Part shown: positions 3,079 through 48,772 of the stretch, one piece after another
Position numbering within the stretch: position 1 is the stretch's first letter
Layout: each line of letters starts with the position of its first letter
Assembly: GCF_029953285.1 (NCBI RefSeq)
Contig: NZ_JASAOI010000002.1
Coordinates: forward strand, 1-64,000
From: Yinghuangia seranimata
GTDB lineage: Bacteria > Actinomycetota > Actinomycetes > Streptomycetales > Streptomycetaceae
Direction of reading: 5' to 3'
Length of the DNA: 64,000 nt
Made by a program: the position numbers and the translations under genes
The notes under the pieces: model-generated
Database searches by the model: none
Seen by the model: the letters and a program-made list of their open reading frames with translations, nothing else
What the model was told of the DNA's origin: nothing

Positions 3079-4104
3079 CTAGGAAGCGAGGACGGGGGTG
3101 GCCGCGTTCGCCGCGACCGGTGCTGCGACGGGGACGCCGGCGGTGGCCGGTCCCGCGGTGTGCGCGGCGGGAGCCCAGTGGGCCGAGCACCACGCGAAGG
3201 TCTGGGACAGTGCCTGCTCGAACGGCGTGACCGGCCGCCAGTCGAGGAGCTCGAGCGCGAGCCCGATGTCCGGGCGGCGCACCCGCGGGTCGTCCACCGG
3301 AAGCGGTACGTGCCGGATCTCGACGGCGGACTCCGCGAGTTCGCGGATGCGGTGGGCCAGGTCGAGGATCGTCAGCTCGGTCGGATTGCCGAGGTTGACC
3401 GGGCCGGGCACGTTGGAGCGCGCCATCCGCACGATGCCGTCGACCAGGTCGTCGACGTAGCAGAACGAGCGGGTCTGCGAGCCGTCTCCGGCCACCGTCA
3501 GCGGCTCGCCGTCGAGCAGCTGCCGGATGAAGGTCGGGATGGCCCGGCCGTCCGCCGGGCGCATGCGCGGGCCGAAGGTGTTGAAGATCCGGATGATCGC
3601 GGCGTCGGTGCCGAGCGAGCGGTATGTGGCGGCCGCCGCCTCGGAGAAACGCTTCGCCTCGTCGTAGCAGGCGCGCGGTCCGATCGGATTGACGTTGCCC
3701 CAGTACGACTCACGCTGCGGGTGCTCGGCGGGGTCGCCGTACACCTCCGACGTGGACGCGATCAGGAACCGCGCGTTCTTCTCCCGCGCCAGTTCCAGGC
3801 AGTTCATGGTGCCCACGGACCCGACCCGCAGCGTCTCGAGTGGGTGCCGTGCATAGTCGACCGGCGAGGCCGGCGACGCGAAGTGCAGGACTATGGCGAC
3901 CTTGCCGCTGACGGCGAGGCCGTCGGACACGTCCTGTTCCAGGAATTCGAACCCTGGTTCGCCGGCGAGCCCGGCGAGGTTGTCGAGCGAACTGGTCAGC
4001 AGGTTGTCGGCGCACAGCACCGAATACCCGTCCGCGATCAGCCGCTCGCAAAGGTGGGAGCCGATGAACCCGGCACCCCCAGTGACGACGACACGCTTAC
4101 GCAT
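3079..4104 (-). CDS. UDP-glucuronate decarboxylase-like (UDP-xylose synthase) epimerase
   Basis: 341 residues. Extended SDR with GGAGFIGSHLCERL (residues 9-22), HFASPASPVDY (74-84), the ASTSEVYGDP block, YDEAK (Tyr147/Lys151) and RIFNTFGPRM. The SPASP and EVYGDP motifs are characteristic of UDP-xylose synthase, which decarboxylates UDP-glucuronate to UDP-xylose. The last 35 residues are an Ala/Pro/Val-rich tail not expected in the family core. It is the first gene of a close run (10 bp before the GDP-mannose epimerase-like gene). About 124 bp separate it from the upstream glycosyltransferase, so a promoter could lie there. The related dTDP-glucose 4,6-dehydratases are an alternative but lack the SPASP signature. 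Confidence 0.85.
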   Translation of the reverse strand: MRKRVVVTGGAGFIGSHLCERLIADGYSVLCADNLLTSSLDNLAGLAGEPGFEFLEQDVSDGLAVSGKVAIVLHFASPASPVDYARHPLETLRVGSVGTMNCLELAREKNARFLIASTSEVYGDPAEHPQRESYWGNVNPIGPRACYDEAKRFSEAAAATYRSLGTDAAIIRIFNTFGPRMRPADGRAIPTFIRQLLDGEPLTVAGDGSQTRSFCYVDDLVDGIVRMARSNVPGPVNLGNPTELTILDLAHRIRELAESAVEIRHVPLPVDDPRVRRPDIGLALELLDWRPVTPFEQALSQTFAWCSAHWAPAAHTAGPATAGVPVAAPVAANAATPVLAS

Positions 4105-4228
4105 GGATGCCTTCCTTGCCGACGGAGGACAGCCACCACCACAACGTCTGGTTCATCCGGTTTTGCGAAGACGCGCCGCGATTCGCGCCGATTCCCACCC
4201 GATCAGCGCAGGGCGGTACCACGGCGGG

Positions 4229-5533
4229 TCACCGCCGGAGGTGCCTCCGGTACACGTCCTCCACCGCGTCCGTGACCGACGCCGGGTCCGGCAGGCCGTC
4301 GAAGCGCAGCCGCCCCGCCATGCCCACCCGCCGCCGCTCGCGCGGGTCCGCGACCAGCCGGCCCAAGGCCGCCGCCAGCGCGTCCGGATCGGCCGGAGGC
4401 ACCAGCACACCCGCCCGGCCGTGGTCGAGCTGCCGGGGGATCGCGCCGACGGCCGCCGCCACCACCGGCACGCCCGCGGCCATCGCCTCCAGCACCACCA
4501 GCGGCGCGCCCTCGGTCAACGACGGGACGCACAGCACGTCCAGGCCTGCGACCGCCGCGGGCCCGTCGGTCCGCGCGCCGAGGAACCGGACCCGGTCCGC
4601 GACACCCAGCGTGCCCGCGAGTTCCTCCAGCCCGCGGCGCAGCGGCCCTCCGCCGACCACCGCGAAGCGCGCCCGCGGATGCCGCTCCGCGACCAGCGCC
4701 GCCGCCCGCACGAAGTGCTCGACGCCCTTCTCCGGCTGCAGCCGCGCCACCACCCCCACCGTCGGGGCCTCGCCCCGCGGCACGTCACCCCTCGACACCG
4801 GCGGACGGGCGAACAACGCCGTGCCGACCACGCGCACCCGACCCTCCGGCACCCGGTCGACCGTGCACAGGCGCTCCCGGATCTGCTCCGACACCGCCAG
4901 CACCACCGCGCAACGCCGGTACAACGGACGGCTGTACGCCCGGGCGAGCACCCCGCGCCACGACGCCATGCTGTGCTCCGTGACCACCACCGGCACACCC
5001 GTGACCGTGCCCGCCAACGCGGCCGCCATCGACGCCGCGTGCACGTGCGCGTGAACCACGTCGAACCGCCCCGACCGTGCCAGCCGCGCGATCCGCACCG
5101 CGAACCCGAGACTGACCCGCTTCGCGACCCGCCGTCGTCCCAGCACCACCACCCGCACGCCCGCCCCCGACAACGCCGCCGCCGGCGGACCCGCCTCCGT
5201 GCACGCCAGCACCACCCGGTGCCCGCGCGCCGCCAACGCGACGGCCAAGCCGGTCACTTGCCGCTGCGCGCCGCCGATCCGCAGGTCGTCCACCACGAGC
5301 AGCACCCGCAGCCGTCCGGGCCCGACGGGCTCGGCGCCGACCCCCTCCCACCCCGGCGCGGCATCGGGCTCCGCGACCTGGCCACCGCACGCCAGCCGTT
5401 GCAACGCCCCGAGGACCCGCCGCCCCTCCCGCACCGCCGGCCGCACCCCGCCGACCAGGACGGAACACCCCGCCGTAACCGTGTCGCCACGCACCCGTCC
5501 CCCCACCCGTGTGATCCGTCCGCCTACCCCCAT
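4229..5533 (-). CDS. family 4 glycosyltransferase (GT-B fold)
   Basis: The core begins with RVLLVVDDLRIGGAQRQ and contains FDVVHAHVHAASMAAALAG, VVVTEHSMASWRG, VGVVARLQPEKGVEHFVRAA and SLTEGAPLVVLEAMAAGVPVVA, the standard GT4 acceptor- and donor-side motifs with the E-x7-E pair. It is about 360 residues from first motif to stop, normal for the family. The start is uncertain: the frame is open to 5692 but the N-terminal 100 or so residues are Gly/Arg-rich and unlike any GT. I use the ATG at 5533 (MGVGGRIT) although no clear Shine-Dalgarno precedes it, and the true start may be nearer the core. Retaining sugar transfer to a surface polysaccharide is inferred from family and from the downstream nucleotide-sugar genes on the same strand. 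Confidence 0.8.
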   Translation of the reverse strand: MGVGGRITRVGGRVRGDTVTAGCSVLVGGVRPAVREGRRVLGALQRLACGGQVAEPDAAPGWEGVGAEPVGPGRLRVLLVVDDLRIGGAQRQVTGLAVALAARGHRVVLACTEAGPPAAALSGAGVRVVVLGRRRVAKRVSLGFAVRIARLARSGRFDVVHAHVHAASMAAALAGTVTGVPVVVTEHSMASWRGVLARAYSRPLYRRCAVVLAVSEQIRERLCTVDRVPEGRVRVVGTALFARPPVSRGDVPRGEAPTVGVVARLQPEKGVEHFVRAAALVAERHPRARFAVVGGGPLRRGLEELAGTLGVADRVRFLGARTDGPAAVAGLDVLCVPSLTEGAPLVVLEAMAAGVPVVAAAVGAIPRQLDHGRAGVLVPPADPDALAAALGRLVADPRERRRVGMAGRLRFDGLPDPASVTDAVEDVYRRHLRR

Positions 5534-6198
5534 GCTTGACCAGCGGCCGTCACGACCGATCACGACGTCACCGGGTCCAGTGAACCCCCTCACCGAGACG
5601 CAGTAACGTCCGAACCGATGCTTCGAGCCCACCACAACGCGGGGCGGCGTGTGACCCGAACGACGCGGAAGGCGGCCCCGAAACGGACGCATAAGCCCAG
5701 GCCGCGCATGACGGCGCGGCGTGCGCCGTGCTTGGTGGCGCGCACGGGACGGCGGCGAGCGCGAAACGGGTGCACAAGTCCACGCCGTGCACGACGGGCG
5801 TGCGACGAGCGCCGTGCCGTGTGGCGCTTGCGGGGTGGCGGCGGGCGCCCTGGACGCGTGCCGACGCCGCCCGCGAGGGCGGTCGCGGCTGCGTGGCGGA
5901 TTCGGACGCGGTGAGCGGCGGCGGTATCCGAGCGATTCCGGTCAGGCCCGCCCGCCCGGCCTTCCGGCCCTGCCCGGCTCCCGGCCCGCTCCTCGACCCG
6001 CCCTGCCCGGCTCCCGGCCCGTCGTGCCCCGTCGGGTGTCGGCGGCCGCTTGCGCCGGCCGGCGGCTGCCCGCGTGCGGGGTGACCGGGGAGGTGGCGTC
6101 GGGTCGGATCGGTTCGGGCACGGTGGTGGTGCTTCGTGCCTCGGCGGCGGCGTGTGACCGGTTCACCGGACGCACGCTCCGGAGCGCGGGCGGATATC
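5534..6198. other. 665-bp intergenic region, no convincing gene
   Basis: Divergent promoter space between the minus-strand glycosyltransferase and the plus-strand P-loop gene. All six frames hold open stretches, as expected at this GC, but none shows a recognisable protein or ribosome site. It contains a degenerate 83-bp tandem duplication (5681 to about 5848) and a short repeat of a Gly/Ala-type GC word near 5965-6020. Confidence 0.5.
5681..5848. repeat. degenerate tandem duplication, unit about 83 bp
   Basis: Copy 1 begins AAACGGACGCATAAGCCCAG at 5681 and copy 2 begins AAACGGGTGCACAAGTCCAC at 5764. The copies stay alignable by eye through CGCCGTGC, then GTGGCGC and GGCGGCG, to about 5848. 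Differences are mostly substitutions. No function is visible. Confidence 0.6.
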
Positions 6199-36173: not shown

Positions 36174-36235
36174 CGAACACCACTGTTCGACATTTCGCGG
36201 ATGCCGTCGTACGCTAAAGCGAACAGTGGTGTTCG
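36174..36235. promoter_or_regulatory. twin TetR-type operator around the MFS promoter
   Basis: CGAACACCACTGTTCG (36174-36189) and its exact reverse complement CGAACAGTGGTGTTCG (36220-36235) face each other; each is itself an inverted CGAACA-N4-TGTTCG. Between them a TTCGAC (36186-36191) and TACGCT (36210-36215) could be -35 and -10 with an 18-base spacer. Confidence 0.8.
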
Positions 36236-36249
36236 ACTTCTTGGGGGTA

Positions 36250-37755
36250 GTGGTGCACACGCACGCCTCGACCGGGGAACGGCGGCCCGGCGCAGCCCAC
36301 GGGCACGAGCAGGCCGACGACCACGGTCACGGCCCCTCGGAGGCCTCGACCGGATCGGCCGCACGCCGGTGGTGGGTGCTCGCGGCGCTGTGCCTCGCGC
36401 AGTTCATGGTGATCCTCGACGTGACCGTGGTGAACGTCGCGCTGCCGGTCATGGGCCGCGAGCTCGGCCTCGGCCGGGCCGCGTCGACGTGGGTGGTCAC
36501 GGCGTACACGCTGTGCTTCGGCGGGCTGATGCTCTTGGGCGGGCGGATGGCCGACGTGTACGGGCGCCGGAACGTGTTCGTCGTCGGCCTGGTCGTCTTC
36601 ACGGCCGCGTCGCTCGGGTCGGGGCTCGCCGACGGGCCCGAGGCCCTGATCACCGCCCGGGCGTTGCAGGGCGTCGGCGCGGCGATGCTCTCGCCCGCCG
36701 CACTCTCGATCCTGACGACGACGTTCCACGGCCCCGAGCGCAACAAGGCGCTCGGCGTGTGGGCCGCGCTCGGCGGTGCGGGGGCGGCCGTCGGCGTGCT
36801 GCTCGGCGGCGTGTTCACGGACGGGCCCGGCTGGGAGTGGGCGTTCTTCGTGAACGTGCCGGTCGGCGTCGCCCTGGCGGTGGCCGTGCCCGTGCTGGTC
36901 GACGGCGGCTCCGGGCGCGGCGGCGGGCGTATAGACGTCCCCGGCGCGCTGGCGGCCACGGGCGCGGTCGGGGCGCTGATCTACGCGCTGGTGCGCGCGG
37001 GCGACGACGGCTGGGGAGACGGGCTGACTCTCGCGGCGTTCGGCGCCGGGGCCGCGGCGGCCGCGTTGTTCGTCGTGATCGAGCGCCGTGCCGCGGAGCC
37101 GCTCGTCCGGCTGCCGGAACAGGGGCGGCGGGCGGTGCTGTCCGGCAACGCGGTCATGCTGGCCGCGTCCGGCCTGCTGCTGTCCTTCTTCTTCCTGGCG
37201 TCGCAGTACATGCAGCGCACGCTAGGCCTCGACGCGCTGCACACCGGCCTGGTGTTCCTGCCCGTCGCGGTCGCCATCGGCCTCGGCTCGCACCTCGGCA
37301 TGCACGTCGTGGCCCGGCACGGCGGCCGACCCGCCGCGGTCACCGGCTTCGTGCTCGCGGGAGGCGGCGCCCTGTGGCTGAGCCGCCTGCCGCAGGGCGG
37401 GAGCGCGTGGGCGCACGTGCTGCCGGGCTTCGTGCTCGCGGGCGTCGGGCTCGGCGCGGCGTTCGTGGCGGCGACGACGACGGCGCTGGCGTACGTCGGG
37501 CCGCACGACGCGGGCGCGGCGTCCGGCCTCGTGAACACCGGGCACGAGCTGGGCGGCACGCTCGGGATCGCGGTCATGTCGTCGATAGCGGCGTCCAGCC
37601 TGGACGCCGTCGGGGCGGCGCGGATGTCGGCGGACGGCATAGGAACGGCCTTCACCGCCGCGGCCGTCGCGGCCGGTGTGGTGGCGATCGGCGCGGCCGT
37701 CCTGCTCCCGGGCGGACTGCCGCCGGAGACCGACCGGCCGATGTTCGCGCACTGA
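36250..37755 (+). CDS. EmrB/QacA-type MFS multidrug transporter
   Basis: 501 residues from GTG 36250; upstream GTG codons at 36226-36229 lie inside the operator. The His-rich N-terminus (HTHASTGERRPGAAHGHEQADDHGHG) precedes DHA2 motifs WVLAALCLAQFMVILDVTVVNVALPV, LGGRMADVYGRRNVFVVG and GVGAAMLSPAALSILTTTFHG; about 14 helices. The eight-or-so His residues before the first helix are unusual. A TetR gene starts 53 bp downstream in the same direction and the twin operators precede it. Confidence 0.88.
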   Translation: MVHTHASTGERRPGAAHGHEQADDHGHGPSEASTGSAARRWWVLAALCLAQFMVILDVTVVNVALPVMGRELGLGRAASTWVVTAYTLCFGGLMLLGGRMADVYGRRNVFVVGLVVFTAASLGSGLADGPEALITARALQGVGAAMLSPAALSILTTTFHGPERNKALGVWAALGGAGAAVGVLLGGVFTDGPGWEWAFFVNVPVGVALAVAVPVLVDGGSGRGGGRIDVPGALAATGAVGALIYALVRAGDDGWGDGLTLAAFGAGAAAAALFVVIERRAAEPLVRLPEQGRRAVLSGNAVMLAASGLLLSFFFLASQYMQRTLGLDALHTGLVFLPVAVAIGLGSHLGMHVVARHGGRPAAVTGFVLAGGGALWLSRLPQGGSAWAHVLPGFVLAGVGLGAAFVAATTTALAYVGPHDAGAASGLVNTGHELGGTLGIAVMSSIAASSLDAVGAARMSADGIGTAFTAAAVAAGVVAIGAAVLLPGGLPPETDRPMFAH

Positions 37756-37808
37756 CCCGGCGGACGGGGTGCCGGGCCCGCGCGGCCCGGCCCCTAGGGT
37801 GGACGACT

Positions 37809-38435
37809 GTGGCAGGCACCAACACACGTACAGGCGGCGGCGCGGGTTCCTCGGGCCCCCGGCGCCGGGCCGACGCCGAACGCAGCATCGAGGCGATCAT
37901 CGACGCCGCCCAGGCCGGCCTGGCCGGGGACCCCGGGCTGAGCATGGCCGAACTCGCCCGCACCGCCGGCGTCGGACGCGTCACCCTGTACGCGCACTTC
38001 CCGTCCCGCGAGGCACTCCTGGGCGCGGTGCTCGAACGCGCGGTGACCGAGGCCGCGGCCGCCATCGAGGCGGCGCAGCCCGAGCGGGGGAGCGCGGCCG
38101 AAGCGCTGGACCGGCTCATCCGCACCTCCTGGCACGTCCTCGACCGGCACCGCCGCCTCTTCGCGGTCGCCCAGCACGAACTGCCCGCGGCGCAGATGCG
38201 GCAGCACCACCACCGGGCCATGGTCCACGTCGAGCGCCTCGTCGAACGCGGCCGCGAGGAAGGCGACTTCCGCACCGACCTGCCGACGGACTGGCTGCTG
38301 ACCACCGTCTACAGCCTGATGCACGCCGCCGCCGACGACGTCAACAACGAACGCCTCACGGCGGACCGCGCCCCCGAGGTCCTGGTGGCGACGATCCTCC
38401 CGGCTCTGCGGTCCCCCTCCGACCCCGGCCGCTGA
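37809..38435 (+). CDS. TetR-family transcriptional regulator
   Basis: 208 residues from GTG 37809. HTH region SIEAIIDAAQAGLAGDPGLSMAELARTAGVGRVTLYAHFPSREALLGAVLERAV; the ligand domain has SWHVLDRHRRLFAVAQHELP. It follows the exporter gene and is the best candidate to bind the twin CGAACA-N4-TGTTCG sites upstream. Confidence 0.9.
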   Translation: MAGTNTRTGGGAGSSGPRRRADAERSIEAIIDAAQAGLAGDPGLSMAELARTAGVGRVTLYAHFPSREALLGAVLERAVTEAAAAIEAAQPERGSAAEALDRLIRTSWHVLDRHRRLFAVAQHELPAAQMRQHHHRAMVHVERLVERGREEGDFRTDLPTDWLLTTVYSLMHAAADDVNNERLTADRAPEVLVATILPALRSPSDPGR

Positions 38436-39395: not shown

Positions 39396-41390
39396 TCAGC
39401 CCCGGTCGGCCGCGCCGACGACGACCGGCACGCCGGCGAAGCCGCGCGCGGCCTGATCGTCGGGGGCGACGACATCGGCCACGACGCAGGTGGCGTTGTC
39501 TGGGCCGCCCGCCCGCAGGGCCAGTTGGATCAGTTCGGCAACCGAGTCCGCGGGCGACATCCGGGTGGCGAGGCAGCCGTAAAGCCTTTCCGGGCCGACC
39601 AGGTCGGAGACGCCGTCGGTGCAGAACAGGTACCGGTCGCCGGGTCGGATCTCGCGGAGGGCCACGTCCGGCTCGGCTCGGCCGTCGCCCGTCAACAGGC
39701 GTGTGACGATGGAGCGTTCGGGGTGCACGGCGGCCTCATCGTCGGTGATCCGTCCTTCGTCGAGCAGGCGCTGCACCGCGGTGTGGTCACGGGTGATCTG
39801 GAACAGCTCGTCGTCGCGGAGCAGGTAGGCGCGGGAGTCGCCGATGTGGAGCAGCGCGGCGCGCCCGCCGGTGCAGTACATGGCGGTGAGTGTGGTGCCC
39901 AGCCCGTCCAGGCCGGTGGCGGAGGACGCCAGCTCGCGCAGCCGTCGGTCGGCTCGTGCCGCGGCCTCATGCAGCGACGTCAACGGGGCGGACGAGGGAA
40001 CGCCGTCCAAGTCGACGAGGCAGGCCACCACTTCGGCCGCCGCGATGTTGCCCGCGCGCCGCCCCGCGCCGCCGTCGGCCACCGCCAGCAGGTGCGGGCC
40101 CGCGTAGCCGCAGTCCTGGTTGACGTCGGCGAGGAGGCCGCGGTGAGAGGCGGCCGCATAGTGCAGCACCGGTCCGGGCGCGCGCGGGGTGGTCGGCGGC
40201 GGTGCGGGCACGGGACCGGTGGCCGCCCCGTGCACCGGCGGTCCGCCACGGCGGTCCGCGGCCGATTCGTGACGCGGCTTGCCGAGGTAGTACTCCGTCC
40301 GGACGATGAACTCGCCGTCCATCGTCTGGACCGCCACGGAACGGCGCAGACTCTCGGGCCAGACCCCGGACGCGACCTGCGCGACGACCCACCGCCGGTC
40401 CGCGCGCCACAACCGGGCCACGGCGAACATCAGGACGTCGTCGTCGAACATCCACGGCTGCTCCTCGTACGTCATCCGGCCGCTCAGGTACTCGAGCACC
40501 AGCTGACGGTCGCCCAGGACGCGCGGGTCGCCGGGGACGAGGCCCAGATCGCTCGCGGCGAGCCCGTGCCCGGGGGTGCCGAGCGGGACGGGCGGCGCGG
40601 CCAGGCGTTCGAGGACGACGTCGAGCGGGGGCCGGGCCGCAGGGTCCTTGGCGAGGCAGGCGGAGAGCAGGCCGACGAGGTCGTACGGCAGGCCGCCGAG
40701 CAGGCGGAGGTCGGGCTCCTCGTGGACGATGCGGTAGAGCACGACGTCCGGGCGGCCCGCGCCGAACGGGCCGGACCCGGTGGCGGCGTACACCAGGACC
40801 GCGCCGAGGCAGAACACGTCGCTCGCCGTGCCGACGGGGCCGTTGCGGATCTGCTCGGGCGACATGAAGCCGGGCGTGCCGATGACCTTCGTGCTGGTCG
40901 AGGCGTCGAGCGCGCGGGCGATGCCGAAGTCGATGACGCGCGGGCCGTCGTCGGCGAGGATCACGTTGCCCGGCTTGAGGTCGCGGTGGACGAGCCCGCA
41001 CCCGTGCACGGCGGCCAGGCCCTCGGCGACGCCCGCGCCCAGGATCCGGAGCCCGTCCTCGCGCAGCGGCCCGTGGCAGGCGACCGCCTCGGACAGCGAG
41101 GGGCCGGGGATGTACGCGGTCGCCATCCACGGCGGGTTCCCGTCGGGGTCGGCGCCGACGACCTGCGCCGTGTAGAAGCCGCCCACCTTGCGCGCCGCAC
41201 CGACCTCGCGGGCGAACCGGCGCCTGAAGTCGGGCTCCCGGGCCAGGTCCGGGCGGATCATCTTGACGGCGACCGGCCTGCCGCCCGGCGAACTCCCCAG
41301 GAACACCTGGCCCATGCCGCCGCCGCCCAGCCGGTGCGTGAGCCGGTACGGGCCCGCCTGCCGCGGGTCGCCGTCCTGCAGTGCCTCCAC
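39396..41390 (-). CDS. serine/threonine protein kinase fused to PP2C-type phosphatase
   Basis: 664 residues from GTG 41390. Kinase domain about 13-265: glycine loop LGGGGMGQVFLG (21-32), VAVK (Lys43), HRDLKPGN (135-142), DFGIA (154-158), GTPGFMSPEQI (171-181). A 150-residue middle segment holds VLEYLSGRMTYEEQPWMFDDDVLMFAVARLW and AVQTMDGEFIVRTEYYLGKPR, not recognised, then a Pro/Thr linker. The PP2C domain starts near 405: SHRGLLADVNQDCGYAG, LLAVADGGAGRRAGNIAA, GTTLTAMYC, LLHIGDSRAYLLRDDELFQITRDHT, GDRYLFCTDGVSDLV and PDNATCVVADVV, covering the metal-binding Asp residues. No transmembrane helix or PASTA repeat is seen. Both activities would sit in one cytoplasmic chain, unlike the usual separate pknB/pstP. 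Confidence 0.92.
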   Translation of the reverse strand: MEALQDGDPRQAGPYRLTHRLGGGGMGQVFLGSSPGGRPVAVKMIRPDLAREPDFRRRFAREVGAARKVGGFYTAQVVGADPDGNPPWMATAYIPGPSLSEAVACHGPLREDGLRILGAGVAEGLAAVHGCGLVHRDLKPGNVILADDGPRVIDFGIARALDASTSTKVIGTPGFMSPEQIRNGPVGTASDVFCLGAVLVYAATGSGPFGAGRPDVVLYRIVHEEPDLRLLGGLPYDLVGLLSACLAKDPAARPPLDVVLERLAAPPVPLGTPGHGLAASDLGLVPGDPRVLGDRQLVLEYLSGRMTYEEQPWMFDDDVLMFAVARLWRADRRWVVAQVASGVWPESLRRSVAVQTMDGEFIVRTEYYLGKPRHESAADRRGGPPVHGAATGPVPAPPPTTPRAPGPVLHYAAASHRGLLADVNQDCGYAGPHLLAVADGGAGRRAGNIAAAEVVACLVDLDGVPSSAPLTSLHEAAARADRRLRELASSATGLDGLGTTLTAMYCTGGRAALLHIGDSRAYLLRDDELFQITRDHTAVQRLLDEGRITDDEAAVHPERSIVTRLLTGDGRAEPDVALREIRPGDRYLFCTDGVSDLVGPERLYGCLATRMSPADSVAELIQLALRAGGPDNATCVVADVVAPDDQAARGFAGVPVVVGAADRG

Positions 41391-41488: not shown

Positions 41489-42211
41489 TTAGGAGGACGC
41501 TGCGTCTTCCTCGTCCTGGTCCCCGGCCTGGCCTTCGTCCTCGTTCCCGGCCTCGGCCTCGGCCGGCGGCGGTGCGTCGACCACGACCAGCGAGACGATC
41601 GTGTCGATGACGCCGCCCATGTCCACGGACGGGTCGATCAGCCACTGGTGCTGGACGCCGTCCACGGCCGCGAGGGCGAGGGCGACGACGGCGTCCAGGT
41701 CGACGCCGGGGCGTATGCGGCCCTGCCGTTCGAGTTTGGCGAGGCCGTTGCGCAGCGCGCCGCCGATGTCCGTGTTGCGGACGTCGAAGAAGTCGTGGGC
41801 GGGGTGTTCGGGGTAGCCGGCCGCGGCGGCCATGCTCACGTGCAGGCGTACCAGGCCCGGGACTTCGGCGTTGCGGCGGAGCATCTCGCCCAGCGGGGTG
41901 AGGGGGTTGCCGTAGCGGACCTTGAGGACGTCGTCGGCGACCACCCGGCCGCGTTCGGCCAGCACCCACAGCAACAGGCCTTCGCGCGAGCCGAAGTAGT
42001 GGAGGACGCCGGCCTGGGACATGCCCATGCGTTCGGCGACCTCCTTGAGCAGGGCGCCCTTTTCGCCGAGCGTCGCGAACACCTCCAGCGCGACGTCGAG
42101 GATCTGCTGGCGTCGCACGACGCCTTTGGCGTACCTGCCCCGTGGGTTGCGGATCATGTCCTTGCGCGACACCCGCTCGCTCGGCCCGGGCTCGCCCGGC
42201 TCGGATTCCAT
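41489..42211 (-). CDS. TetR-family transcriptional regulator
   Basis: 240 residues from ATG 42211 (MESEPGEPG); an in-frame ATG at 42238 is the alternative. HTH region VVRRQQILDVALEVFATLGEKGALLKEVAERMGMSQAGVLHYFGSREGLLLWVLAERG. The last 25 residues are strongly acidic (PPPAEAEAGNEDEGQAGDQDEEDAASS), odd for TetR. It is divergent from the MFS-ATPase fusion 110 bp away and is the likely repressor of the transport locus. No clear palindrome was found in the gap. Confidence 0.88.
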   Translation of the reverse strand: MESEPGEPGPSERVSRKDMIRNPRGRYAKGVVRRQQILDVALEVFATLGEKGALLKEVAERMGMSQAGVLHYFGSREGLLLWVLAERGRVVADDVLKVRYGNPLTPLGEMLRRNAEVPGLVRLHVSMAAAAGYPEHPAHDFFDVRNTDIGGALRNGLAKLERQGRIRPGVDLDAVVALALAAVDGVQHQWLIDPSVDMGGVIDTIVSLVVVDAPPPAEAEAGNEDEGQAGDQDEEDAASS

Positions 42212-42321
42212 GCGCGAAAAGCTAGTCGAGTTCGGCATTTGCGTCTACGCTCCCCGGAGTTCGATCGATTCCCACACGCATACCTGCACGAATACGCGGA
42301 CAACGGGCGACGGGGGCCTGC

Positions 42322-44598
42322 ATGACGCAGCATCACGCCGTGGGGGACGAGACGGTCGCCCGTCTCGCACACGGCCTGATCGAAGCCGACGACGGGCGAG
42401 CGGCAGGACGGACGCCGCGCGGCGACACGCCGTCGGCACCCGGCGGCGACCCGTCCGCCCCCGGCGTCGGCGCGCCCGAGCTCCGACTCCGGGACGGCCT
42501 GTCGGCATCCGGGTCCGCGGCCTTCCTCGTCCTGATGGCGCTCGTCGCGTTCGACGAACTCGAAAGCGCCGCACTGGGCGTGCTCGCCCCCGAGCTGCGC
42601 GACAGCTTCGGCGTCGGCAACGGGGCCATCGTGGTGATCAGTTCCGCCGCGGGCGCGTTCATCGTGCTCGGGACGCTCCCGATGGGCTGGCTCGCCGACC
42701 GCTATCCGCGCGGCCGCATCGCGGGCTGCGCGGGGGTGGCCTTCGGCGTGCTCGTCGCGCTGTGCGGACTGGCCGGGAACATCTTCCAGTTCTTCCTGGC
42801 CCGCCTCGGCGTCGGCGTCGCGAAGTCCGCGAACCTCCCGGTCGGCGCCTCACTCCTCGCGGACACCTACCCGGTCGGGGTGCGCGGCCGCCTCGGGGCC
42901 GCGCACGGCACTGCCGCTCGCGCGGCGGGCATGCTCAGCCCGCTCGCGGTCGGCGGCATCGCGGGCTGGGCGGGCGGCGACGAGGGCTGGCGCTGGGCGT
43001 TCCTGCTGCTCGGGCTGCCGTCCGCGATCGCCGGCCTGGCGGCCCTGCGGCTGCCCGAGCCGGAGCGCGGCCGGCACGAACGCGCCGCCGTGCTGGGGGA
43101 GTCCGCCACGGCATCGCCCGATGCCTCGTCCGCCGAGCCGGTGTCCGTGGAAGCGGCGTTCGCGCGCCTCAACCGCATCGCCACCCTCAAGGGGATGATC
43201 GCCGCCTGCTCGGCGCTCGGGTTCGGCCTCTTCACCGTCCCGGTGCTGGCCAACCTGTTCGTGGAACAGCGCTACGGCGCAAGCGCCTTCGAACGCGGCC
43301 TCGCCTCCGCCGCGGCGGGCGCCGCCGCACTGGTCGTCCTGCCGCTCGTCGGCCGGCGGTTCGACCGCCTCTACCGCCGCGACCCGGCGCGCGCCCTCGC
43401 GGTCGTCGGCTACCTGGTGATGCCCGCCGGGCTGCTGATGCCCGTGCAGTACGCGATGCCCAATCTGGCGCTGTTCACCCTCGCCCTGACACCCGGCGCG
43501 GTGGCGATGTCCACGGCGCTCACGATGCTCACACCGGCGCTGCAGTCCGTCGTGCCGTACAAACTGCGCGGCATGGGCGCGGCCATGGCCTCCGTGCACA
43601 TCTTCTTCGTCGGTGCGACCGGCGGCGCGCTGCTGTCCGCGCTGCTGGCCGACCAGTACGGGCCGCGCGTCGCGACGCTGCTGATCTGCGTCCCGGCGAC
43701 CGTGGTCGGCGGCGCGATGATGCTGCGCAGTTCGGCGAGCATCCGCGACGATCTCGCACTCGTGGTCGCCGAGTTGCGTGAGGAGGAGGCGGAGAACAGG
43801 CGCCTCGCCGAGGCGCCCGGAGACGTCCCGGCGCTGCACCTGTCCGAGGCCGACGTCTCGTACGGGCCGGTCCGCATCCTCTTCGGCGTCTCGCTGGAGG
43901 TGCGGCGCGGCGAGATCCTGGCCCTGCTGGGCACCAACGGCGCGGGCAAGTCCACCGCGCTGCGCGCCCTCGCCGGGCTCGTGACACCCACCCGCGGCGT
44001 GGTCCGGATGGACGGCCGCGACATCACCTTCACCACGCCCGAACGCCGAGGCCGCCTCGGGGTGCGCCTCCTGCCGGGCGGCAAGGGGGTGTTCCCCGAA
44101 CTGACGGTCCGCCGCAACCTGGAAGCCGCCGCGTTCGCCTACCGCCGCGACCCCGCCGACCGCGAGCGGCGCATCGCCCGCGCCCTCGCCCGGTTCCCGG
44201 ATCTGGCGGACCGTCAGGACACTCGGGCGGACGCGCTGTCCGGCGGCCGGCAGCAGCTCCTGGCCCTGGCCATGGTGCTCGTCCACGACCCGGAGGTGCT
44301 GCTCGTCGACGAACTGTCGCTCGGCCTGGCACCGGTGACCGTCCAGGAACTCCTCGGTGTCCTGGAGGAGTTGCGCGACGACGGGGTCGGCGTCGTCATC
44401 GTCGAGCAGTCCCTCGACCTGGCGCTGTCCGTCGCCGACCGCGCGGTCTTCCTGGACAAGGGGCGCGTGCGCTTCAGCGGGCCGGCCGCCGAGCTGGCCG
44501 CCCGCGACGACCTCGCCAAGGCCGTCTTCCTCGGCGCCGCAGTCGGAACCGTCGGGGGCGTCGGGGGAGTCGGGGCAACCGAGGGAGCGGGCCGGTGA
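42322..44598 (+). CDS. MFS permease fused to LivF-type ABC ATPase
   Basis: 758 residues from ATG 42322, with GGGGG about 7 bases upstream. Residues about 60-480 are an MFS permease: AAFLVLMALVAFDELESAALGVLAPELRDSFG, motif A MGWLADRYPRGRIAG, then helices to ATVVGGAMMLRSS. After the linker EEEAENRRLAEAPGDVP, residues about 512-758 form a branched-chain amino-acid type ATPase: LGTNGAGKST (Walker A), KGVFPELTVRRNLEAA, ALSGGRQQLLALAMVLVHDPEVLLVDELSLGLAPVTVQEL (signature and Walker B) and VIVEQSLDLALSVADRAVFLDKG (H-loop region altered, Gln-Ser instead of His). The ATPase matches LivF. Its stop overlaps the next gene (GTGA). Confidence 0.93.
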   Translation: MTQHHAVGDETVARLAHGLIEADDGRAAGRTPRGDTPSAPGGDPSAPGVGAPELRLRDGLSASGSAAFLVLMALVAFDELESAALGVLAPELRDSFGVGNGAIVVISSAAGAFIVLGTLPMGWLADRYPRGRIAGCAGVAFGVLVALCGLAGNIFQFFLARLGVGVAKSANLPVGASLLADTYPVGVRGRLGAAHGTAARAAGMLSPLAVGGIAGWAGGDEGWRWAFLLLGLPSAIAGLAALRLPEPERGRHERAAVLGESATASPDASSAEPVSVEAAFARLNRIATLKGMIAACSALGFGLFTVPVLANLFVEQRYGASAFERGLASAAAGAAALVVLPLVGRRFDRLYRRDPARALAVVGYLVMPAGLLMPVQYAMPNLALFTLALTPGAVAMSTALTMLTPALQSVVPYKLRGMGAAMASVHIFFVGATGGALLSALLADQYGPRVATLLICVPATVVGGAMMLRSSASIRDDLALVVAELREEEAENRRLAEAPGDVPALHLSEADVSYGPVRILFGVSLEVRRGEILALLGTNGAGKSTALRALAGLVTPTRGVVRMDGRDITFTTPERRGRLGVRLLPGGKGVFPELTVRRNLEAAAFAYRRDPADRERRIARALARFPDLADRQDTRADALSGGRQQLLALAMVLVHDPEVLLVDELSLGLAPVTVQELLGVLEELRDDGVGVVIVEQSLDLALSVADRAVFLDKGRVRFSGPAAELAARDDLAKAVFLGAAVGTVGGVGGVGATEGAGR

Positions 44599-47438
44599 TC
44601 ACCACCCAGGTCCTCTTCGACGGCCTCGTCAACGGCATGGTCTTCGGACTGCTCGCGATGGGCGTCGTGCTCGTCCACCGGTCCACGCGCGTGGTGAACT
44701 TCGCGGTCGGCAACGGCGGCCTCGTGGGCTCGGGGTTGTTCGCGCTGCTCGCCGTGCGGTACCACGTGCCGTGGCCGCTGGCGCTTCCGGTCGCCCTCGC
44801 GGCCGGGACGCTGTTCGGCGTGGTCATGGAACTCGCCGTCATCCGCCGCCTGTTCACTGCGCCGCGGGTCGTGGTCATGGTCGCCACCATCGGTATCGCG
44901 CAGATCGCGCTCCTCGTGGCCGTCGCCTACCCGCACCTCGACGAACGTGGCGCGCGGTATCCCGTGCCGTGGTCGGGGACCTGGCAGCCGTGGGACGGCC
45001 TGCGCGTCACCGGCCCGCAGCTGTCCGTGCTGGTCGTCGTCCCGGTGACGGCGGCGCTGCTGGCCTGGGTGCTCGACCGGACCGCGGTCGGCGGCGCGGT
45101 GCGCGCCGTGGCGAACAACCCCGACCTGGCCCGGCTTTCCGGCATCAGCCCCAAGCTGGTGTCCACCGCCGTATGGGGTGCGGCAGGCCTGCTGTCGACC
45201 ATTTCGCTGATCCTCATCAGCGGCCGGCACGGCAGCGTGCACGACCTCACCCAGCTCGGGCCCGGCACGCTGGTGCGCGCGCTCGCGGCCGCGGTGCTCG
45301 CCCGCATGACGTCGTTCCGCGGCGCACTCGTGGCCGGGACGGGCATCGGCGTCGCCGAGGCCTGCGTCAAGTACCGCTTCCTCGACCAGACCGGGCTGTT
45401 CGACCTCGTCCTGATGCTCGGGGTGCTCGTCGGCATCGCGGTGATCGGGCGCCGCGGCAAGAACGGACGTGCCGACGAGCCCGCGGTGTTCGCGTACCGC
45501 ACCGCCAAGCGCCCCGTCCCGCCAGGCGCACCCTGGTGGCTGCGGAACATCGACCGGTTCGGCATGGCCGCGCTGCTCGCCGTCGGGCTGGCGCTGCCGC
45601 TGACAACCGGACTCGCCTCCCGGCAAATGCTGTTCACCACCGGCCTGGCACTCGCGCTGTGCGCGGCGTCGCTGACGATGGTGACCGGGTGGACCGGCCA
45701 GGTCTCGTTGGGGCAGATGGCGTTCGCAGGCCTCGGCGCGCTCGGCGCGGCCACGCTCAACCGGGGGGTGATCCTCGACCTCGGACCGCTGGGCTGGGTG
45801 ACCGTCCAGGGCATGGTCTTCCCGGTCGCCGTCCTCGTCGCGGCGTGCGGAACGGCCGTGCTGGCCGCCGTCGTCGGCCTCGGGGCGTTGCGGGTGCGCG
45901 GACTGATGCTCGCCGTCGGCACCTTCGCGTTCGCCATCGCCTGCGAGCAGTTCCTGTACCGCAAGCGGTTCTTCTCCGGCGACTTCGGCGCGGCGGTGCC
46001 GTTCCCGCGCACGACCGTCTTCGGCATCGACGTGTCCGGCCAACGTGCCTACTACTACCTGGTGTTGGCGGTGCTCGTCGTCGTGCTCGCGGTCGTGGCA
46101 CGGCTGCGCGCCTCGGGCATCGGGCGCGCGGCGATCGCGGTACGCGACAACGAGGACGGCGCCGCCGCCTACACCGTCGCGGCCGGGCGCATCCGCGTCG
46201 GCCTGTTCGCCCTCTCCGGAGGCATCGCCGGAATCGGCGGCGCACTGCTGGGCGCGGCCCTGCAGTCGATCCCGTGGGGCGAAAGGTACTTCCTCGCGAA
46301 CGACTCGCTGACCCTGGTGGCGATCGCGGTCATCGGCGGACAGGGCTCGGTCGCCGGGCCGGTGCTCGGTGCCGCCTGGGTGGTCGGCGTCCCCGCGCTG
46401 TTCCCCGGCAACGCCCTCGCGCCGCTGCTGGTCTCCGGGATCGGGCTGCTCATGCTGCTGCTCTACGCCCCGGGCGGGCTCGTGCAGCCGGCGTACGCAC
46501 TGCGCGCGGCACTGATCCGGCGGTTCGCACCGGACCCGCACGCCGAGGCCGTCCCCGGGCCCGCGGCTGACGACTCCCCGCGGCCCGGACTGCGCGCCGT
46601 CCCCCGGGCGCGACGCCTGGCCCTGCGCCCCGACGGCCCGGTCCTGGAGACCCGCGACGTGCGCGTGGCCTTCGGCGGCCTCACCGCCGTCGACGGCGTC
46701 GGCATCCAGGTCCACCAGGGCGAGGTCGTCGGGCTGATCGGCCCCAACGGCGCCGGAAAGTCCACGCTGATGGACGCGATCGGCGGCTACGTCCCCGCCG
46801 ACGGCACGGTCACCGTCCTCGGCACCGACGTGTCGCGGCTGCGACCCCACCACCGGGCCGCCCTCGGTCTCGGCCGCACGTTCCAAGCCGCAAGGCTCTT
46901 CCCCGAGTTGACGGTCCGCGAGACGCTGCGGCTCGCCCTCGAGTCCCGCGGCCGCACCCCGCTCGCGGCCACCGCGCTGCACCTGCCGCACACCTTCCGC
47001 GCCGAACGCGCCCGCCGCGCGGCCGCCGACGACCTCGTCGGCCTGCTCGGCCTCGGCCGGTACGCGGACACGCCGATCGCCGAACTGTCCACCGGCACCC
47101 GGCGCGTCGTCGAACTCGGCGGCGTCCTCGCCCTCGACGCCCGCGTGGTGTGCCTGGACGAGCCGACCGCCGGCCTCGCACAACGCGAAACCGAGGCGTT
47201 CGCACCGCTCATCCACGAGGTCCGCCGCGAACTCGGCGCCGCGCTCCTGGTGATCGAGCACGACATGCCGCTCATCATGGCGATCAGCGACCGCGTCTAC
47301 TGCCTGCAAGCGGGCCGTGTCATCGCCCACGGCACACCCGACGCCGTACGCGACGACCCCGCGGTGATCGCCGGCTACCTCGGCACCGACCGGCGTGCCA
47401 TCGAACGCAGCCGGGCACCGGCGACCGCCGCGCACTGA
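44595..47438 (+). CDS. fused LivH-LivM-LivG branched-chain amino-acid-type ABC transporter
   Basis: 947 residues from GTG 44595. First domain (about 1-285) is LivH permease: FDGLVNGMVFGLLAMGVVLVHRSTRVVNFAVGNGGLVGSGLFALL, later ARMTSFRGALVAGTGIGVAEA. Second (about 325-625) is LivM: LALCAASLTMVTGWTGQVSLGQMAFAGLGALGAA, then GIGRAAIAVRDNEDGAAAYTVAAGRIRVGLFALSGGIAGIGGALLGAAL. Third (from about 684) is LivG ATPase: VAFGGLTAVDGVGIQVHQGEVVGLIGPNGAGKST, LSTGTRRVVELGGVLALDARVVCLDEPTAGLAQRE, VIEHDMPLIMAISDRVYCLQAG. With the preceding MFS-LivF fusion, all four classical HAP/BCAA transporter parts are present in two chains. Confidence 0.93.
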   Translation: MITTQVLFDGLVNGMVFGLLAMGVVLVHRSTRVVNFAVGNGGLVGSGLFALLAVRYHVPWPLALPVALAAGTLFGVVMELAVIRRLFTAPRVVVMVATIGIAQIALLVAVAYPHLDERGARYPVPWSGTWQPWDGLRVTGPQLSVLVVVPVTAALLAWVLDRTAVGGAVRAVANNPDLARLSGISPKLVSTAVWGAAGLLSTISLILISGRHGSVHDLTQLGPGTLVRALAAAVLARMTSFRGALVAGTGIGVAEACVKYRFLDQTGLFDLVLMLGVLVGIAVIGRRGKNGRADEPAVFAYRTAKRPVPPGAPWWLRNIDRFGMAALLAVGLALPLTTGLASRQMLFTTGLALALCAASLTMVTGWTGQVSLGQMAFAGLGALGAATLNRGVILDLGPLGWVTVQGMVFPVAVLVAACGTAVLAAVVGLGALRVRGLMLAVGTFAFAIACEQFLYRKRFFSGDFGAAVPFPRTTVFGIDVSGQRAYYYLVLAVLVVVLAVVARLRASGIGRAAIAVRDNEDGAAAYTVAAGRIRVGLFALSGGIAGIGGALLGAALQSIPWGERYFLANDSLTLVAIAVIGGQGSVAGPVLGAAWVVGVPALFPGNALAPLLVSGIGLLMLLLYAPGGLVQPAYALRAALIRRFAPDPHAEAVPGPAADDSPRPGLRAVPRARRLALRPDGPVLETRDVRVAFGGLTAVDGVGIQVHQGEVVGLIGPNGAGKSTLMDAIGGYVPADGTVTVLGTDVSRLRPHHRAALGLGRTFQAARLFPELTVRETLRLALESRGRTPLAATALHLPHTFRAERARRAAADDLVGLLGLGRYADTPIAELSTGTRRVVELGGVLALDARVVCLDEPTAGLAQRETEAFAPLIHEVRRELGAALLVIEHDMPLIMAISDRVYCLQAGRVIAHGTPDAVRDDPAVIAGYLGTDRRAIERSRAPATAAH

Positions 47439-47485
47439 CCGCGCGAGTGACCCGACCGCACCACCACCAAGGGGACGAACGCACC

Positions 47486-48772
47486 ATGCGCACAACCAGG
47501 TTGATCGCCGCGACCGCCCTCGCGCTGAGCCTCGCCGTCAGCGGCTGCGTCGCCACCCCGCCGCCGCAGGCCGGGCGCCCGGGACCGCAGTCCGCGCCGC
47601 CGATGCCGAAGACCGCGCCCGGCGTCACCGACACCGAGATCAAGATCGGCGTGCTGTACCCCGACGCCGCGGCCATCAGCGCCTTCGTGCAGATGGGCGA
47701 CGAGGACTTCGAGGGCATGTACCGCGCGCTCATCGACCGCATCAACGCGCGCGGCGGCGTCAACGGACGTCGCATCGTCCCCGTCTTCGTCGCCAACAAC
47801 CCCGTCGGCACCGCTCCGGCGCAAGAGGCCTGCGTACGACTGACGGAGGATCAGAAGGTCTTCGCCGCGATCGGGTTCTTCGTCTTCGAACAGACCATGT
47901 GCTACGTGGAGACACACCGCACCGCCGTGATCGGCGGCCCGCTCACCGAGAAAATGTACGCCCGCGCCCACGCGCCGTGGTTCAGCACCTCGCGCGGCGG
48001 CGACGAGGCCGCCGCCGCGGTAGAGGCACTGGCCGCGGCGGGTCTGCTGGCCGGGCACAAGGTGGCCGTCGTCAGCGCCGCCGTCGACCAGCAGATACGC
48101 GACGACGTCGTGGTGCCCGCGCTGGAACGGGCCGGGGTGCACCCCGTGGCGACGGCGGTCATGGACCCGGCGTCGTTCGACACCGCCGCCGTCGACGCGC
48201 AGTCCGGCATCGTCGCGCAGCGGCTGCGCGCGTCCGGCGCCGACGTCGTCATCCCGGTCGGCTCGGCCGTCACGGTCTTGACCGAGGCGATCGCGGCGAC
48301 CGGGTGGCGGCCCCGGATGATGTACCTCGACTGGCAGATCGGCGCGTACGACGCGAACCACAGCGACGCCTCGGTGTTCGACAACGCGGTGATCGCGGGC
48401 GGGTCCGTCGACTGGGACGAGGCGACCTACAAGGAGTGCGCCGACTCCGTCACCCAGGCCCTCCACGCCAAGAACGCCCAGGCCCACCCCGGAGGCGACC
48501 CCGACGCCGGCGCACCGTCGCCTTCCTCGATCCAGGGCGCGTGCGCCGACCTGTCCCTCTTCACCGCGATCGCGACCAAGGCCGGCCGCGGCCTCGACTA
48601 CGCGACGTTCCAGGACGCGGGCTTCGCGCTCGGCGCCTTCACCGTCCCCGGCGGCAACGGCCCGACGGTCTACGGCCCCGGCAAACCGGCGGGCAGCGGC
48701 GGGCGGACCCAGCTGTGGACGTACGACCCGGCCCAGGGAAGCCTCGTCGCATACGGCGCCGGGAAGGGCTGA
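47486..48772 (+). CDS. ABC transporter substrate-binding lipoprotein
   Basis: 428 residues from ATG 47486 (AGGGGA 9 bases upstream). Signal peptide MRTTRLIAATALALSLAVSGC with lipobox, then a Pro-rich linker. The periplasmic-binding type 1 fold is seen in GVTDTEIKIGVLYPDAAAISAFVQMG, INARGGVNGRRIVPVFVANNPVGTAPAQEACVRLTEDQKVFAAIGFFVFEQTMCYVE and GYHKVAVVSA-like VAVVSAAVDQQIRDDVVVP. Ligand unknown, the FVFEQTMCYVE loop differs from LivK. It follows the fused permease by 47 bp, completing a locus of binding protein, fused permease-ATPase and MFS-ATPase. Confidence 0.93.
   Translation: MRTTRLIAATALALSLAVSGCVATPPPQAGRPGPQSAPPMPKTAPGVTDTEIKIGVLYPDAAAISAFVQMGDEDFEGMYRALIDRINARGGVNGRRIVPVFVANNPVGTAPAQEACVRLTEDQKVFAAIGFFVFEQTMCYVETHRTAVIGGPLTEKMYARAHAPWFSTSRGGDEAAAAVEALAAAGLLAGHKVAVVSAAVDQQIRDDVVVPALERAGVHPVATAVMDPASFDTAAVDAQSGIVAQRLRASGADVVIPVGSAVTVLTEAIAATGWRPRMMYLDWQIGAYDANHSDASVFDNAVIAGGSVDWDEATYKECADSVTQALHAKNAQAHPGGDPDAGAPSPSSIQGACADLSLFTAIATKAGRGLDYATFQDAGFALGAFTVPGGNGPTVYGPGKPAGSGGRTQLWTYDPAQGSLVAYGAGKG

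Follow-up and report, generated by a model that had tools for sequence, protein, structure and literature searches.

The stretch of Yinghuangia seranimata DNA analysed here (the window, 64,000 nucleotides, lying within contig 22 of a genome of 9.8 Mb in 113 contigs) encodes a transport system in which a permease domain of the major facilitator superfamily (MFS) and a LivF-type ATPase are joined in one 758-residue chain, MFS-LivF. The GTG start of the following frame overlaps the TGA stop of MFS-LivF as GTGA and opens a 947-residue LivH-LivM-LivG chain, LivHMG, downstream of which lies a lipoprotein binding protein; a TetR gene is divergent (Table 1). All ABC parts are contained in two chains, one of which carries a complete and conserved MFS domain. 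This arrangement had been put forward in an original prediction made from the window sequence and is borne out by the open reading frame list and by Pfam, with the TetR gene, whose start is at 42238 or 42172, lying just beyond the coordinates considered there.

In Pfam searches MFS-LivF matches MFS_1 at residues 77-432 (profile positions 7-344 of 347) and ABC_tran at residues 522-664. LivHMG contains two BPD_transp_2 stretches (6.6e-51), ABC_tran at residues 700-859 and BCA_ABC_TP_C at residues 908-932, and the minus-strand frame contains TetR_N. The best NCBIfam matches are UrtE/LivF-like and LivG-like, and all of the 25 matches listed per protein fall below the curated cut-offs. Two BPD_transp_2 permease domains together with LivG- and LivF-type ATPases bearing ATP-site motifs are in keeping with a HAAT/Liv-type importer. 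The AlphaFold2 model of MFS-LivF, built from 53 sequences, has a mean predicted local distance difference test score (pLDDT) of 85.7 and a predicted template modelling score (pTM) of 0.82, and contains twelve membrane-length helices (helix list read by hand), a linker helix and an ATPase fold. A Foldseek search of the PDB with MFS-LivF returned ABC proteins only among the 50 matches listed and nothing on the MFS half.

Table 1. Features of the MFS-LivF locus in window coordinates
Feature	Position	Strand	Evidence
TetR-family regulator, divergent	41489..42238	-	PF00440 1e-8; homologous TetR at the same place in Streptomyces sp. ISL-43 (L127)
MFS-LivF fusion, 758 aa	42322..44598	+	Full-length one-frame homologues in many genomes
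MFS half, residues 66-471, twelve predicted membrane helices, Spinster-like	42517..43734	+	MFS_1 5.7e-36; AlphaFold2 helices; 6e8j E 2.6e-12
Linker helix, residues 474-497, between membrane helix 12 and ATPase	43741..43812	+	Confident AlphaFold2 helix; conserved residues
LivF-type ATPase half, residues 504-737	43831..44532	+	ABC_tran 2.6e-28; ATP-site motifs kept; Foldseek best 1ji0
GTGA stop-start overlap	44595..44598	+	Sequence
LivH-LivM-LivG fusion, 947 aa	44595..47438	+	Pfam; AlphaFold2 pLDDT 85.1, pTM 0.87; same fusion in homologues
LivH-type permease segment, residues 1-288	44595..45458	+	First BPD_transp_2 stretch; predicted helices 4-288
LivM-type permease segment, residues 319-644	45549..46526	+	BPD_transp_2 346-609; AlphaFold2
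LivG-type ATPase segment, residues 684-935	46644..47399	+	ABC_tran, BCA_ABC_TP_C; NF008449 LivG 4.2e-60, below cut-off
Lipoprotein substrate-binding protein, 428 aa	47486..48772	+	ATG 47486; VSGC, which we take to be a lipobox-like motif; homologue near the system in 48 of 64 loci

Recurrence of the MFS-LivF fusion

The Y. seranimata genome contains five copies of the fusion. A search for the fusion protein in 100 related genomes, with at most 10 candidates scored per genome, revealed stop-free homologues over both halves at 55-61% identity (G000, G001, G002, G005, G020, G030, G037 and G073) and remoter ones at 33-37% identity (G079, G086, G088 and G095), some of them with stops. When the MFS half alone was used as query in four genomes, all 11 matches at 666-761 bits were fused, five of them in the own genome, and the sole other match at an expect value (E) of 1e-10 or better scored 44 bits. 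A wider scan of the genome_contigs set with the MFS half identified 59 loci spanning Yinghuangia, Embleya, Streptomyces, Catenulispora, Frankia-type genera and many metagenome-assembled genomes (MAGs) of Acidimicrobiia. MFS and LivF share a single frame in 58 of these; the exception is an MFS frame that ends early near a contig end (L138). The partner chain is equally constant, as all 54 uncut LivH-containing partner frames are LivH-LivM-LivG, with six more cut by the locus end. In a phylum sample of 296 genomes, with three candidates scored per genome, at least 16 (own included) match both halves. From the class of G363 we sampled 148 genomes; an MFS match with E no higher than 1e-20 was present in 46 of them, and some of these matches are stand-alone MFS. 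No LivF is attached to any of sixteen stand-alone MFS regions with lower scores (L140, L142-L156).

That the fusion might be an artefact of assembly or annotation, or a chance read-through, has a probability close to nil. One relative (L141) looked split, and its gap between the halves consists of the Ns of a scaffold gap within the linker. Stop-free frames across independent genomes and five copies in the own genome speak against an artefact, and apart from this apparent case we found no relatives divided at the same junction.

The frames around the fusion vary. In a remoter branch MFS, LivF and LivG form a single frame (L046, L048, L060, L061, L063-L066, L157) adjoined, as far as the loci extend, by LivH-LivM, and in L047 LivH-LivM, MFS-LivF and LivG are separate. 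As the variants differ elsewhere, the MFS-LivF pair is the constant element. A tree of 86 MFS sequences included 14 of the 16 stand-alone rows, L145 and L154 being dropped because too little of them aligned. Ten MFS-LivF-LivG rows form one group with modest support (82/18); they include L158, which groups there though its frame is cut before LivF. The MFS-LivF rows require two changes on the tree. All 14 stand-alone rows fall outside the core fused branch and 13 of them form one group between the fused groups. Because the branches are long, deep placement is unsure and the data fit a single fusion event as well as several. The window copy is sister to that of Streptomyces sp. ISL-43 (L127; support 100/95), where the gene order is the same: divergent TetR, MFS-LivF, LivHMG and binding protein.

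Compared with known systems, the locus shares with LIV-I/HAAT importers (LivFGHMJK) the LivH and LivM permeases, the LivG and LivF ATPases and the lipoprotein binding protein, and its LivF retains Walker A, an LSGGQ-like signature and Walker B. It differs in that the four subunits reside in two chains, that LivF bears a twelve-helix MFS domain and that neighbouring genes suggest glycosides or other cargo. LplT-Aas fusions likewise join an MFS domain to a cytosolic machine that handles its cargo, but there the partner is an acyltransferase/synthetase and not the ATPase of an ABC importer. No description of an MFS-LivF protein was found among the matches listed in a search of titles and abstract openings of the open-licence literature. 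Liv importers and Spns transporters are both known; their union in one chain appears to be the new part. Domain databases may well list this architecture already, and we expect general annotation pipelines to label the protein by just one of its halves. Primary (ATP-driven) and secondary (gradient-driven) transporters are held as separate classes, whereas here they occur in one polypeptide, which is found in Acidimicrobiia, Frankia-type and Streptomycetaceae genomes and is multiplied within single genomes. This makes it testable whether an MFS fold can be driven or gated by an ABC motor, or can share its cargo.

Several individual loci deserve mention. A homologue over 90% of the fusion lies at NZ_CP108785.1 4149331-4151376 (L160), on a 5.7 Mb record of Embleya sp. 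NBC_00888 that is named a plasmid. Three loci from records titled Bifidobacterium breve, Terriglobia and Acidobacteria MAGs (L083, L109, L113) group with Acidimicrobiia-type sequences, L083 and L113 by the tree and L109 by shared neighbours, and are probably binning errors. L125, L128 and L135 each contain two MFS-LivF copies on opposite strands, separated by a few kb; in the minus-strand copy Gln occupies the position in transmembrane helix 4 (TM4) discussed below, and in the plus-strand copy the LivH part matches its profile in two pieces.

Sequence constraint in the MFS half, linker helix and ATPases

By its sequence the MFS half is Spinster-like and closest to Spns among solved MFS proteins. 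In a profile search against solved structures the best match was 6e8j (2.6e-12), the same chain as HnSpns 6E9C, followed by SPNS1 9boi (1.1e-10). After these Spinster proteins came 4lds (6.2e-8), and GlcP, EfpA and EmrB ranked ahead of SPNS2 (3.7e-5). Motif A and the TM4 Arg are common to the MFS half and the Spinster proteins (HnSpns, SPNS1, SPNS2 and MsSpns). Judged by entry names, none of the Spns chains among the matches listed is a natural fusion with an ABC ATPase. PMC9440201 describes Asp41, Arg42, Arg122 and Glu129 as the proton network of HnSpns, with Glu129 as the proton switch, and Asp87-Arg91-Asp142 as a charge relay; in PMC9440201 and PMC13192786 Spinster proteins are described as transporters of lipids or amphipathic drugs. 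By alignment, the window equivalents are E81, S82, R161 and K168 for the proton network and D126, R130 and D181 for the relay. The window protein thus differs from HnSpns in having Lys for Glu129 and Ser for Arg42.

We then analysed an alignment (A3) of 53 members of the MFS-LivF type. D126, R130, R161, D181, R188, D348 and R416 are invariant, so that the Asp-Arg-Asp charge relay of motif A is kept in all 53. At position 81, the equivalent of HnSpns Asp41 in TM1, Glu occurs in 44 and Gln in 9 sequences; the 16 stand-alone MFS proteins from the class of G363, the nearest unfused relatives found, all have Asp there. Over 43 loci the mean pairwise distance is 0.44 for the MFS half, 0.46 for LivH and 0.42 for LivM, and MFS distances correlate with those of LivH and LivM (r 0.84 and 0.86). 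The ratio of nonsynonymous to synonymous substitution rates (dN/dS) of the MFS half is 0.02-0.26 in the 8 measurable pairs of 9, the ninth being saturated, and is similar to that of LivH and LivM. The MFS half is therefore under purifying selection, as are LivH and LivM. An MFS half without conserved residues, which would have spoken against the original prediction, is not what we observe.

In the homologue alignment of the linker helix D477 is invariant and E487, E488, E491 and R494 are at least 90% conserved. The LivF half keeps Walker A, the LSGGQ-like signature and Walker B throughout A3, with Gln at the H-loop position (VEQS) in all 53 sequences. In LivG, LSTGTRR replaces LSGGQ and EHD is kept. 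Ordinary LivF and LivG display the same asymmetry, and we do not count it as new. In a further copy of the own genome (L034, contig 1, about 3484-5622) some 32 residues are lost in frame, removing the LivF signature and Walker B and leaving the MFS half intact; this is either a natural ATPase-dead copy or an assembly error.

Possible cargo and role of the fused system

The reading we prefer, with a probability of roughly 0.4, is that of an ATP-driven importer of clade-specific solutes, often glycosides, which would be linked in a 1:1 ratio to a Spinster-type path for a partner or product. In its importer part the system matches the known Liv scheme: two chains and the binding protein would make up a complete asymmetric Liv/HAAT-type ABC importer, with, from the domain count, one LivH, LivM, LivG and LivF each and exactly one covalently attached MFS domain. 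The sequences establish the architecture, the co-conservation of its parts, the constraint on the MFS half and the glycosidase linkage; complex formation, cargo and the export role we infer as follows. The binding protein, LivHM and LivGF would import a solute that is not the same in every clade; plant-type glycosides taken up intact are the probable solute in the Yinghuangia/Embleya/Frankia branch, and GH3, GH78 and GH2 enzymes would trim them in the cytosol. The MFS domain would form a second membrane path beside the importer. An amphipathic compound would most likely use it, either a partner or a product such as the aglycone set free, and uptake and discharge would thus take place at one site. 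Uptake coupled to export, one of the roles raised in the original prediction, is a possible reading. For plant-associated actinobacteria the system would be a candidate route for the uptake of intact glycosides.

The glycoside cargo is suggested by neighbouring genes. These were called heuristically (codon log-odds) for up to five genes upstream and seven downstream in 64 loci, after removal of 8 of the 59 genome_contigs loci that duplicated stretches from the G genomes. Three clusters, short members excluded, comprise 35 glycoside hydrolases (GH) assigned by Pfam (20 GH3, 8 GH78, 7 GH2), and these lie near 22 of the 64 loci (GH3 in 17, GH78 in 8, GH2 in 7). For 15 operons from seven genomes, taken from the fusion-protein search, the counts within 12 kb, which are descriptive only, are 8 operons with GH3 (0.31 expected) and 6 with GH78 (0.08 expected). 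No GH3 or GH78 was found within 12 kb of 15 other ATPase matches in the same genomes, picked from the matches listed in that search. In Frankia-type loci with long flanks GH3 or GH2 is present in 6 of 7 (L085, L086, L089, L090, L098 and L133; not L087). The Frankia nepalensis locus L085 carries on one strand GH2, GH3, MFS-LivF, LivHMG, the binding protein, a MocA-type oxidoreductase and a further GH3. A 1150-residue frame (L033, 4763-8212, plus strand) containing Abhydrolase_3 (esterase-like) and GH3 abuts the start of an own-genome MFS-LivF 70 kb away from the window copy. By a crude hydropathy test a signal-like hydrophobic N-terminus is lacking in 14 of 16 GH3 (4 of the 20, cut by the locus end, were omitted), 8 of 8 GH78 and 7 of 7 GH2 proteins; the same test scored one in 41 of 54 binding proteins and 5 of 5 S15-type proteins. 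As the glycosidases would be cytosolic, the glycosides would have to enter intact.

Other clades point elsewhere. Directly upstream of the system in marine Acidimicrobiia, clustering places a Pro_racemase protein in 7 loci and a pyrroline-2-carboxylate-reductase-like protein in 8. In L106, the locus scanned, the former is closest to trans-3-hydroxyproline dehydratase, with both upstream proteins below the NCBIfam cut-offs. These genes suggest a different cargo, in one marine clade perhaps hydroxyproline-type compounds. In L103, L105, L106 and L109-L112, where hydroxyproline-type genes precede MFS-LivF, a large Fe-S/CCG protein lies further up. Branched-chain amino acids as cargo find no support, since the neighbours suggest glycosides in many loci. 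A plain branched-chain amino-acid importer was dropped as the default for this reason and may still apply to the window copy.

A number of observations weigh against an importer of glycosides coupled to a Spinster-type export path. None of the three glycosidase clusters occurs among the examined genes in 42 of the 64 loci. For the window copy itself, GH3 and GH78 are both missing within 12 kb, and the ten neighbours scanned include no glycosidase and name no substrate. The GH families were picked after the neighbours had been seen, partly in the same loci, contig ends were ignored, and four of the 15 operons (L037, L039, L044 and L045) are one orthologous clade; it is the post hoc choice and this shared clade that make the enrichment descriptive. 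As marine loci carry hydroxyproline-type genes, a single aglycone-export role cannot fit all. On the side of the MFS domain, position 82 (HnSpns Arg42) is Arg in one of the 53 A3 sequences and Ser in the window, and position 168 (HnSpns Glu129, TM4) is Lys in 45, Gln in 6, Arg in 1 and Glu in 1. With proton-switch Glu and substrate Arg each kept in one of 53, a claim of active secondary transport is weakened, and the paired titratable switches of Spinster proteins (TM1 Asp with TM4 Glu) were not found in any of the 53 rows.

The altered proton switch leaves room for regulatory or ATP-driven roles. The MFS half could be a pseudo-transporter that moves no solute of its own: conserved as a membrane anchor, as an assembly factor or as a gate, it would place LivF and regulate the importer. 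We consider this less probable and rather unlikely on balance. It would agree with the substitutions at the Glu129 and Arg42 positions, with the persistence of the MFS half while adjoining catabolic genes vary by clade, and with the conserved linker helix and its invariant Asp. However, motif A and other MFS residues are invariant, the constraint equals that on LivH and LivM, and the loss of Glu is not specific to the fusion: at position 168 Gln stands in 11 of the 16 unfused relatives, Glu in 2 and Lys (L140), Thr and Ser in 1 each. As these relatives mostly lack Glu too, the change in the proton switch is not tied to the fusion, and Glu-to-Lys as a mark of fusion, which we had considered, is weakened.

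The view closest to the original prediction, in which the MFS half would be a proton-coupled importer or exporter in its own right, with the tether serving only co-expression and stoichiometry, now seems doubtful. Part of the proton network is kept, with an acid in place of HnSpns Asp41 in 44 of 53 sequences and R161 in place of Arg122 in all, but the master-switch Glu is lost in 52 of 53, and a proton-driven MFS half is not supported. Improbable, too, is an MFS domain energised by ATP, in which closure of the LivF-LivG ATP sandwich would push the linker helix, switch the MFS domain and replace proton coupling. The conserved helix running from TM12 to the ATPase, charge-relay residues that are intact beside an altered proton switch, and four genomes without an unfused member of comparable score are consistent with it. 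Yet no precedent is known to us, fusion alone does not show energetic coupling, and both ATPases serve LivHM too. A hybrid, for which we see similarly little probability, would let one LivF-LivG ATP cycle drive glycoside import through LivHM and expulsion of a product through a non-proton-coupled MFS domain in one-for-one exchange, and would in effect be an ATP-powered MFS transporter.

Regulator, binding protein and other neighbouring genes

The original prediction had also raised conservation of the locus with TetR. This holds for the nearest relative, L127: only there and in the window does a homologue of the window TetR (cluster c8) lie next to the system in divergent orientation. Of the 64 loci, 7 contain a c8 member among the genes examined, and c21, the other TetR cluster looked for, accounts for 4 more. 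A LacI-type cluster, of which one member was scanned, is found in 7 loci. Inverted repeats of the window were rejected as a TetR operator candidate, as they fall within the coding start and have no clear counterpart in L127.

The window binding protein gives only MctB in Pfam, below the cut-off, and marginal matches to solved structures; its equivalent in L127 is a Peripla_BP_6 protein (35.4 bits vs a cut-off of 31.7). The ten neighbours scanned in the window comprise an acyl-CoA dehydrogenase, an N-acetyltransferase, another MFS protein, regulators, glyoxalase-like and cyclase-like proteins, DUF4873 and ABC proteins. About 4 kb upstream of the system (36226-38432, plus strand) lies an unfused MFS gene followed by another TetR gene. 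A single minus-strand frame at 39399-41390, judged by eye, appears to join a Ser/Thr protein kinase to a PP2C-type phosphatase, in that order.

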